38,301 bases of DNA from Saccoglossus kowalevskii (lineage: Eukaryota; Hemichordata; Enteropneusta; Harrimaniidae): assembly GCF_000003605.2 (NCBI RefSeq), contig NW_003149272.1:174782-213082 (forward strand), written 5' to 3'. Positions 9,801 through 16,702 of this stretch are shown in pieces. The position numbers were made by a program, and so were the translations under genes. Below the pieces are notes generated by a model, which did not search any database, was not told where the DNA came from, and saw only the letters and a program-made list of their open reading frames with translations. The first letter of the stretch is position 1. Every line of letters begins with the position of its first letter.

Positions 9801-10463
9801 AACAGGTCTGGTGTTTGTAATACCTGTGTACCTTTCAGGGGTGCTTGATATATTAAAGGATCAGGATTTGACACATACAGATGACAGGATAGACAAACAG
9901 ACATCAGAACGTCATTACCTCCCATTTGAACTTTGCACACATGAGAGCTCAACAAACATTCATCACAACCTACTATTTGAATCTACATTTACGATAATTA
10001 AAAAAAATTAAAACACCCATTGGTAATCCAAACTATTAGTTTTGTACCATTTTGAGCATATTTGATGGGATCTACGTTCCGCGTGAATCGGCCGTGAGAG
10101 GCTTTATCTATAATTCTGCTGATTCGACCGCGAAATTAAATGTTTTAAATATTTTAAATTTTCAGGAAACATGTTTAGGTCTATGAGGAACTCATACTAG
10201 CATAAACAAATAAATTCGAACTTGGGTTGTTGAATCAACCAGTATATTCACACTACTTATATCATTAAACTGGAACTGAAGAATAAACCTATTTCTCAAC
10301 TCCATTCTGAGGCTACGAACACATTTCATACTGGATACATTTGAGATACTGAACATGGCGTTTATTTTGTCAACAGTAGCCAAACGAAAACCCGAACATT
10401 CTACTCGATGTATTTTTTCTGTTCGACTAAATTTGCGCATCACAAACAAAGTCCGTTACTCAC

Positions 10464-10554
10464 CGTATTTATTCGTCTCTTCTGTTGACCTGTCAGAGTC
10501 CGACTCATCGCTGTCTGACTCGGGGTAATCATAATGTTTCTCTTTCTGTCCCAT
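10464..10554 (-). CDS. First coding exon (b) of a putative second SLC44A paralogue
   Basis: Minus-strand ATG at 10554 opens 30 codons, [20 protein letters not shown] then [10 protein letters not shown], plus a G before a GTGAGT donor. Same start motif, same phase-1 end and same donor as the exon at 16424-16505, but with an acidic SD-rich middle. KYG would read on into the family's GKP motif after splicing. No continuing exon is found down to position 1, so intron 1 would exceed 10 kb. Could be a separate gene copy or an alternative first exon sharing exon 2 with exon (a). Confidence 0.65.
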
Positions 10555-10765
10555 CGTCCTGGCGACTATTATATTTAAAACTCTTAAAAACTATAACCAT
10601 AAGCCATCTAATACCCCCAAATGATTACATTTGACCTGTACAGACACTGACAAGCCCACCAGAAAACGTGATACGCTACGACCATTCTGATTGGTTAGAA
10701 TCGGTTGCATCTCCCAACGTCATCTGTTTAATGGTTGTATCTCTTGTTAAATATTAACTATACTA
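10555..10765 (-). promoter_or_regulatory. Putative promoter (b) with CCAAT box
   Basis: Upstream of the ATG at 10554. An inverted CCAAT box (ATTGG on plus, 10690-10694) sits in CTGATTGGTTAGA, read on the minus strand as AACCAATCAG, an NF-Y-type site. The same block with the same flanks precedes the exon at 16505. No TATA box is clear. Confidence 0.5.
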
Positions 10766-12499
10766 AGTAAACCCTGCAGCCTTCATGCTTTCTTCTCTCT
10801 ATCAGCGTCCGCAAAGCCAGAATCCACGGTAAACAACCTCTGCAATAACTTTACACGTACAACGTATCATAATAATGCATGTACTACGTATACAGTTTAT
10901 AAATATGTTGTATTTACTGAAATATGTCCAAATAAAACCTTTATTAGTAGAGTATTTTTAAAACAAAGAAAAGTATTTTCAATCATTAATTCGAAAAAAA
11001 ATGGATTCCGAAATGAAAATTATGTTTTTGAAAGAAAAAATGGAAGCTGCTCGGGAATATTCTTCAAACATTTGGAATATCTTTAAAATGAATGATATTA
11101 CATAAACAACTTCAAACGATTAACACTAATATTTTCTAAACTACCAAATCCTCTTAAAACAAATGGCTCTGAATATATAAACACTTAAGTGAAAGAAGAA
11201 ATGGGATTGTATTTAATGATGATTTGGGTACACCTGCTTTGAAGCATAATAAAGCCGTCAACAGTTTATAATATATCCAACTATGGCATAACATTAGAAA
11301 ACTACCTGACAAACTAGACAATGGTTATCTACGTGAATTTCGATTACGCGGAAATTTGTATCTTTTGTACGATCAAAGGTGTCAAATCGGTTAAATAACG
11401 GCATTGAATAAAGTATTAATTAACAATGCAAAAAAAACAACACAAAATGATATGTTGTTTGTATATTTTAAATAAATATTTAACAAGTCAGTTTTGGGTG
11501 ATGAGCTGTTAGACATTGTTTTTGTTTATGTTTAACAGGCGTGGAATTTTTAGTCGAAAAACCAGGGCAAAGTCTAGCCTAGATTTACCTTTATCTCCAC
11601 CTGTATATATCCATGTATAGATTCCCTAGCCTTTCGATATGCTACAGTTTGTGTTGGTTTATAAAGTAAGTCATTATTGGTGTTATGATAGCTGTAAAAC
11701 GGTAAGTATTTCCTGCTAAGCTCTATATTTAACAATGTTTTATCAGTCCGCCTTTAATATCAGACTTATTATATTGCGTTACTGTGGCAACGGCCACTAG
11801 CCAGATTTACGGTGCTCTATCAATGATTTGTCAACGAAGATTCATTAATACATCCTTTCGGGCGGAGATATTTTTGTAACTATACTAACGCGTGCTTTCG
11901 TAATTACGTTATAGAACATTTAAGAAATTAAGAAAGTTGATTGTGAGAGCATCTAAATTAATTTAATTTTTTGCGTTTGGTACAAGCCAATATAAAATGC
12001 TATTCGTCTTCAAGGCTATTGCCATCGCATTGTCCACAGATTCGTTTATTATCGGGTACATTAGATTGGCCACATCATTCAATTTTTAGTGAGTGGTCAC
12101 TTTATCGGACTGAATGTCTCTTTTAATTTGTAATAAATGTTGTTCAATGTTGATGCTATAATTCCTGTGTTTGCATTTATCTGTTGTTTGAGATTAATAT
12201 TTGTTTTATTAATAAATGTGATTTGATTGCAGAATAACATTTGCTTTTTAATTGTTTGTTTACTACAAAAGTTTTATTTAATAATGTGTTTTCGATGTTA
12301 CTAGCACGACTGTAGAATTGTATTAGTTGTTTTTGAATAAAGACCTCACATAGATACCTTTCCAGTTCATTGTGAATTGAGAACTTTGATATTAACTAGT
12401 GATGCTGAGTCACAACTAAACCTTCAGTGAAGTAGAGAAGAAGAAGAAAAGACACGTAAAGAAGGGAAACACGGCCAGCAAGTAGAGTACGTCACATAT
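10766..12499. other. No gene recognised
   Basis: Upstream of first exon (b). A short frame after a possible acceptor at 11539 (VEFLVEKPGQSLA then stop) has no partner exon. No repeat structure seen. Confidence 0.4.
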
Positions 12500-15356: not shown

Positions 15357-15371
15357 GGGGGGGGGGGGGGG
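15357..15371 (+). repeat. Homopolymer of 15 G
   Basis: An uninterrupted G run in AT-rich DNA. Able to form a G-quadruplex; length is prone to sequencing error. Confidence 0.9.
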
Positions 15372-16423
15372 CTGCGTAGAGGAGATATGCTCACCATCCC
15401 TTGCGCCCCATTGGCGCAAGTGGTTGCGCTTTTGTTCGGGTGACCCTATACCGACGATGTATATATAATTGACAGACGAAGCAAAATACCTTCCCGGACC
15501 CAAAACGCCGGGAAACCACGGCTATACATGACGATGAGTCGGCAAACTTGCCATTCTTCGAAAATTGCTATTATAAAACTCATATTTTCTAGTGGTTTAA
15601 ATTTCTGCGTGTATAATATTATAGTCATAACGAATTACTGGTAATTACTGTCATTTTTGATGATTGGTAAATTATACCATTCTCTGGACTTTTCAAATTT
15701 AAAGTGAAGGATTTATTAGATAGCTGGTAAAAACTTCCTTCCCCGTGAAACAATAAGTTGGCAGCTCATATAACACTCAATGTTTAAAGCACAACATATA
15801 ATAGTTTGTATAGACTTTGAAACCATATATATATATACATATAATCATAGCTCATAATTAGAGCGTTGCGCAAAAATCTTAGCCGATATGTTATACTGTC
15901 TTTTAAACAATCGGATACAAACTTTTTGAGTTATTGTAACCACACGCGACTTACTCAGTACAACTACTACAACAATGACAACATTAACATAACTCGTTAC
16001 CACATCTTCCTTCATTACATGCAAAGAAAGAACAAAGTAAACATTTACATATTGTCCAGAGGGCCACCTCATCTTCTCCGTGCAGAATATGCTACTGAAA
16101 TAGCACAGTAACCATGTTTTTTTTTAAAGCATCATTCTGAAATAGATCAGCAAGGAAATGACAGCTGCGCTCTAAACTAAAGTTATTACTCGCTAGAGTA
16201 GATAAATATATAAATTCGACCTTTGGTAGTTGAACGAACCCGGATTTTGAGGCTGTCTATATTACAAACTGAAACTTAGCTCATTTTTACACAAGATACT
16301 TATGGGGTACGGAACGAGGCTTTTATGTTGTCATCGATGGCAAACGTAAACACTTCCAACGCGGACAATCAATATAATATTGTAATTTTTCAGTTTGATC
16401 AATTGGCGCATAAAATCACTCAC

Positions 16424-16505
16424 CGTCTTTGTTCTTATCTGCTTTTGAACTGTCATGGGCAGATCCTTCAATGTCCGAGTGCTCAACTTTGTTTTTCTTT
16501 CCCAT
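16424..16505 (-). CDS. First coding exon (a) of a putative second SLC44A paralogue
   Basis: Minus-strand ATG at 16505 opens 27 codons, [20 protein letters not shown] then KADKNKD, plus one base (G) before a consensus GTGAGT donor. SLC44A2/4 proteins begin MG with a short charged cytosolic tail and then a GKP..YDP motif in later sequence; this exon would supply the first base of that Gly codon. No in-frame stop, hydrophilic, no further SLC44A exons seen between it and 10554. A related exon lies at 10464-10554. Assignment is inference from start motif, splice phase, strand and the adjacent SLC44A gene. Confidence 0.62.
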
Positions 16506-16702
16506 TGTCGACTGTAATGACTATAACTCATAAGAACAGCAACGACAAGACGCTTAGATTAGCCCTGATGACAGGAGATGACATGTAGAGATAATGACAA
16601 GAACACGTGATATGCTATGACTAATCTGATTGGTTAGAGTCGGGCGAATTCCCAGTTTTATCGATTTTCTGTTGGTATCCCCTGTTAATAGTTGACATGT
16701 AT
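16506..16702 (-). promoter_or_regulatory. Putative promoter (a) with CCAAT box and CACGTG E-box
   Basis: Upstream of the ATG at 16505. CTGATTGGTTAGA repeats at the same relative place as in promoter (b), with ATTGG at 16629-16633, 124 bp before the ATG. A perfect CACGTG palindrome lies at 16604-16609; copy (b) has AACGTG instead. Inference from conservation between the two copies. Confidence 0.5.

Follow-up and report, generated by a model that had tools for sequence, protein, structure and literature searches.

Twin first exons from a local 0.5-kb duplication in a Saccoglossus kowalevskii SLC44A array suggest alternative promoters

In the tandem SLC44A array of Saccoglossus kowalevskii, the third gene carries two similar first exons. 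We attribute them, with a probability of about 0.75, to two alternative promoters with alternative first exons of one and the same gene, made by a copy of about 0.5 kb. In this reading of the sequence, a unit made up of the first coding exon, the DNA just upstream of it and the opening part of intron 1 would have been duplicated locally, and both copies would have been retained as alternative promoter and first-exon units. From the distal unit, transcription would lead to a product opening MGKKNK..., and from the proximal unit to an acidic, serine-rich one (MGQKEK...SDSDESDSD...). Each first exon would be joined, in phase 1, to a single exon 2, followed by a transporter body common to both, and the two products would differ only in their first 27 or 30 residues, which by homology would be on the cytosolic side. 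Both promoters presumably fire, and the tails may alter regulation or sorting.

The window, i.e. the whole stretch of DNA analysed, comprises 38,301 nt with a G+C content of 33% and corresponds to positions 174,782-213,082 of the forward strand of contig NW_003149272.1 (labelled C3948) in assembly GCF_000003605.2 (572 Mb, 4830 contigs). Window coordinates are used throughout, numbers above 38301 referring to DNA right of the window and numbers below 1 to DNA left of it. The genes in the window are multi-exon, which indicates a eukaryote. Three SLC44A genes lie in tandem on the minus strand, in the order gene 0, gene 1 and the gene with the twin first exons (the twin-exon gene). Gene 1, located upstream of the twin-exon gene and tentatively SLC44A2/4/5-like, has its in-window exons at 21699..36840 on the minus strand; its exons reach 47995, with exons 2-4 and the first-exon candidates right of the window, and its first exon and stop codon lie about 30 kb apart. 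Its exon pieces, joined by hand, match Pfam Choline_transpo (PF04515) with an E value of 1.9e-109 and 366 bits for a cut-off of 26.9. Identity with a human SLC44A2 probe was 52% over the longest piece, and a stitched 158-residue query aligned with the solved SLC44A1 along 83 residues. Gene 1 is a complete-looking and possibly SLC44A2-like gene. Its stop codon at 21701-21699 bears out the claim that the twin exons are situated directly downstream of a complete-looking SLC44A 3' end on the same strand. Between this stop and the distal twin exon there are 14 AATAAA/ATTAAA matches, which are only candidate poly(A) signals.

Gene 0, a further SLC44A gene on the minus strand right of gene 1 (67020-91862), is interrupted by N's. 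It is represented by six pieces that tblastn located from 74282 to 67020, adjoining an N stretch, and by a candidate first exon at 91862-91775 (minus strand, MAKKRPKVDDDGNEVVDSPPPEESNKSKY/G) that opens MAKK, not MG. Searching the assembly for PF04515 gave nine matches, six in gene 1 and three on contig C291. The whole-assembly protein search returned 25 matches, 21 of them on C3948, three on C291 and one on C1383. The latter contig was considered as the missing body of the twin-exon gene and rejected: the fragments it carries at about 4100-8390 (within 1-9000) come from yet another SLC44A-like gene, which is more distant.

The window also contains several repeats. Self-comparison revealed a dispersed family of about 200 bases whose eight or more copies are 77-92% alike and occur in both orientations (484-717, 6356-6574, 19958-20170, 23516-23724, 25266-25491, 27194-27418, 34147-34330 and 36246-36468). 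Two 370-base repeats in inverted orientation, with 93% identity, occupy 20390-20758 and 30374-30742, one inside gene 1 and one just beyond it. Minisatellite-like arrays were seen with units of 301 bases (5388-6253) and 156 bases (8282-8799 and 34351-34839), the 156-base unit thus occurring at two places 26 kb apart.

The distal first exon, exon 1a, lies at 16424..16505 on the minus strand and has 82 bases, that is 27 codons plus the first base of a Gly codon; the proximal exon 1b (10464..10554, minus strand) has 91 bases, or 30 codons plus the first base of Gly. Both read ATG GGA (C/A)AG AAA ... and remain open to G/GTGAGT in phase 1. The original prediction of two minus-strand first exons that start MG(K/Q)K and stop one base into a codon at a GTGAGT donor was therefore read in the sequence as described. 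It had also opposed a basic to an acidic N-terminus. The acidic part of this claim stood, tail 1b being acidic and serine-rich with 4 K/R and 10 D/E, but tail 1a with 6 K/R and 6 D/E is neutral overall and not basic. Clusters of acidic residues and serines can serve as CK2 substrates and as signals for sorting, and it is plausible that SDSDESDSD in tail 1b acts as a CK2-phosphorylated sorting signal. Exon 1b ends in KY/G, whereas exon 1a, ending in KD/G, departs from the usual KY/G of the array.

The similarity of the twins extends well beyond the exons. On the minus strand, the duplicated block around exon 1a (16202..16688) includes about 180 bases 5' of the ATG, the exon and about 220 bases of intron; its counterpart around exon 1b is found at 10202..10750. 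In the self-comparison of the window the blocks aligned with 224 identities in 343 columns (65%) and an E value of 1.4e-12, and the local alignment score of 801-base regions was above that of all mononucleotide shuffles in both series (200/200 and 500/500). This significant local alignment corroborates the claim that the exons share DNA on both flanks. When wider flanks were compared, the similarity was confined to 10202-10750 and 16202-16688, where it fell into two collinear pieces with E values of 1e-14 and 5e-7. Global alignment of the blocks gave 328 identities in 483 aligned bases and a JC distance of 0.42. An assembly-wide search with the core of either block (386/558 and 343/498 bases) found two places each, namely the query block and its twin, with E values of about 1e-10, in a whole-assembly DNA search that scores the best candidates only and skips very common words. 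Rfam at gathering thresholds and ARAGORN each gave 0 matches.

Coding identity between the twins is 68%, no higher than in the flanks, where four segments showed 63, 65, 69 and 65%. Individual residues therefore bear no sign of conservation, and what stays is the frame. Between the exons there is a net difference of 9 bases, equal to three codons, which MAFFT places as one gap and BLAST as gaps of 3, 2 and 4, while the gap sizes in the flanks are 1, 3, 5, 8, 11 and 39. Over 27 aligned codons, the three codon positions have 7, 8 and 11 differences, respectively, numbers too small for showing selection. The best-kept piece of the duplicated upstream DNA (10660..10703, minus strand) is identical at 35 of 41 aligned bases, CTAACCAATCAGA...TATCACGT, and has, 19 bases apart, a CCAAT box and a CACGT core. 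The CCAAT is positioned at -140 from the ATG in 1b and at -128 in 1a, and CCAATCAG and TCACGT are equally spaced in both. This piece was chosen post hoc, once the alignment had been seen, and its apparent conservation upstream of the twins is only suggestive. It is absent from gene 1.

Common exons were located by tblastn, first with a human SLC44A2 probe and afterwards with the exons of gene 1 as queries. Exon 2 (3882..3930, minus strand) encodes (G), 15 residues and (R), and exon 3 (2566..2639, minus strand) encodes (R), 24 residues and (G), with the first transmembrane segment by homology. They match exons 2 and 3 of gene 1 with E values of 0.001 and 5e-7, respectively. Together they encode a 21-residue stretch with the N-terminal block YDPxFxGPxxxRSCTDxxCC, a motif of human SLC44A2. 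The SLC44A exons that the original prediction had placed left of the window were thus found on the minus strand inside it already. The joins are exact: exon 1 gives G, exon 2 opens with GT after ..TTTCAG, and the terminal AG of exon 2 is completed by the G of exon 3. Exons 1a and 1b each join exons 2-3 in frame and give open products, as anticipated from their equal phase. The donor of exon 2, GTACAT, is weak-looking. A 55-copy ATAA/TTTA tetranucleotide array with 98% matches (4004-4223) was noticed 73 bases before exon 2; its length could differ among individuals and might affect splicing.

Beyond exon 3, 2.6 kb further on, a stretch of 39,408 N's starts at the left window edge. We infer that the remaining exons of the twin-exon gene lie within this stretch, and its PF04515 domain would be found there as well. 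Left of the N's, the 50,343 known bases in 90 kb yielded no convincing SLC44A exons (six matches, E 0.58-0.76). Among the 25 matches of the whole-assembly protein search, only exon 3 (177336-177422 in contig numbering) belongs to the twin-exon gene, and none is left of the window.

The 5' ends of the neighbouring genes were compared with the twins. Gene 1 has two first-exon candidates on the minus strand, 434 bases apart and each ending in KY/G: a distal one at 51657-51606 (MGEDNK..., MGEDNKVAPEDADSKKY/G) and an acidic proximal one at 51170-51104 (MSSENLELDDLEDG..., MSSENLELDDLEDGRETKVTKY/G). A strict pattern (ATGGG, 8-50 open codons, G/GT(A/G)AG in phase 1) had three matches on the minus strand and a single one on the plus strand within the 147,410 known bases around the locus, the minus-strand matches being exons 1a and 1b and a first exon of gene 1. 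With up to 74 codons allowed, the strict ATGGG scan gave two matches for the twin-exon gene, one for gene 1 and none for gene 0. The relaxed ATG scan gave three in the gene 1 region (10,893 known bases), two in the twin-exon gene (17,751) and five in the gene 0 region (33,266). Dropped from these were MPPGKVAPLD at 56528 in the gene 1 region and four variants of one repeated MIRGED sequence in the gene 0 region. All first-exon scans demand phase 1, and the shared phase is partly built into them, but the exon 2 sequences back this phase independently, and exon 2 of gene 0 and of gene 1 likewise requires a G from exon 1. Open frames ending in KY/GGT(A/G) occurred four times on the minus strand and never on the plus strand in the same 147,410 known bases. 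All four lie at SLC44A 5' ends (one in gene 0, two in gene 1, and exon 1b), and chance is therefore unlikely.

At the peptide level, the strongest two of ten pairs tried were peptide 1a with the distal peptide of gene 1 (MGxxNKV; score reached by 0 of 2000 shuffles) and peptide 1a with its twin 1b (1 of 2000). At the DNA level, the distal first-exon region of gene 1 resembled 1a and 1b weakly at most, the scores being reached in one series by 12 and 5 of 200 shuffles, respectively, and in another by 40 and 13 of 500. For the second first-exon region of gene 1 the corresponding numbers were 88 and 5 of 500, and for the first-exon region of gene 0 they were 197 and 430 of 500. The score of gene 1's two first-exon regions against each other was reached by 5 of 500 shuffles, so that this pair may or may not be of duplicate origin.

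The original prediction had left the choice between alternative promoters and the remains of a tandem gene array. We consider it unlikely that exon 1a is the remnant of a lost tandem SLC44A gene, its body deleted, and that exon 1b alone serves the present gene. The locus is indeed a tandem array, the coding part of exon 1a is as diverged as its flanks, and its missing KY/G ending together with a peptide like that of gene 1's distal exon is what the exon of a separate gene might show. Yet exon 1a and its twin have kept ATG, frame, phase and full donor at 32% divergence. In simulated neutral decay, one copy stayed intact (ATG, GT donor, phase and open frame) in 0.8-9.3% of the runs with indels and in 2.6-25% of those without, the range depending on the share of divergence put on that branch; since the retained features are also those that drew attention to the exons in the first place, this simulation constitutes moderate evidence. 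The 5.9 kb between the twins contain no convincing other exon (best tblastn match E 0.56, with an internal stop), and with only such weak matches the lost gene would have required a complete loss of its body. Alternative promoters are further favoured because the shared unit ends about 220-250 bases into the intron. Finally, the second first-exon candidate in gene 1 makes alternative first exons slightly likelier, and a relic slightly less so.

Less probable still is that the twin-exon gene is a broken fragment of first exons and exons 2-3, neither isoform being a working transporter. Truncation is possible, since the known sequence revealed none of its exons from exon 4 onwards, and the exon 2 donor looks weak. 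However, the 39.4 kb of N's at the window edge suffice for a body, when compared to the approximately 30 kb of gene 1, and exons 2 and 3 are intact with SLC44A-typical residues kept. As for a chance similarity of the twins, or a dispersed repeat carrying exon-like sequence, the many short dispersed repeats in the window might suggest it; the significance of the alignment, its position above all 500 shuffles and the copy number of two in the assembly search, very common words being skipped, led us to reject this origin as highly improbable. Two alternative promoters in one gene thus remain the preferred reading.

In the simplest history, drawn from short sequences, 1a would be the older first exon, from which 1b was copied in the twin-exon gene. 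It is tempting, if tentative, to go further and regard paired first exons as a theme of the SLC44A array, as in mammalian SLC44A2: the proximal, acidic 1b might have been copied from the promoter-plus-exon unit of 1a, and the swap of a neutral for an acidic tail might be an ancient or recurrent retuning of the family. Paired first exons in adjacent SLC44A genes of a second lineage would make it possible to examine whether the switching of N-termini is of old date or arose repeatedly in this family. The locus would also offer a clean, small case of an alternative promoter that may have arisen by copying a promoter together with its exon.

The tails of 27 and 30 residues may be set against those of mammalian SLC44A2, whose alternative tails are presumably much shorter. 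Alternative SLC44A first exons are already known from mammals, and no report of twin SLC44A first exons was among the best matches listed from the open-licence literature; what is new here is the traceable duplication origin and the second candidate pair in gene 1. Mammalian SLC44A2 (CTL2) has an upstream exon 1a (P1) and a proximal exon 1b (P2), and mouse lung and kidney express both, in differing proportions (PMC4636594). The twin-exon gene belongs to the same family and shares this arrangement, with exon 1a lying upstream of a more proximal 1b. The twins are recognisable DNA duplicates including their upstream DNA, a kinship that the mammalian exons 1a and 1b may or may not share. The role of the alternative SLC44A2 N-termini is unsettled; only P2 is stated, from earlier work, to transport choline (PMC9994479). 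A second parallel is chelicerate sDscam, in which tandem 5' cassettes each have their own promoter (PMC4835542). There too, promoter-plus-5'-exon units are duplicated and spliced to a constant body, in addition to tandem gene duplication, but the sDscam cassettes have two or four exons, are sometimes many and encode immunoglobulin domains, whereas the Saccoglossus gene has two single exons encoding short tails.
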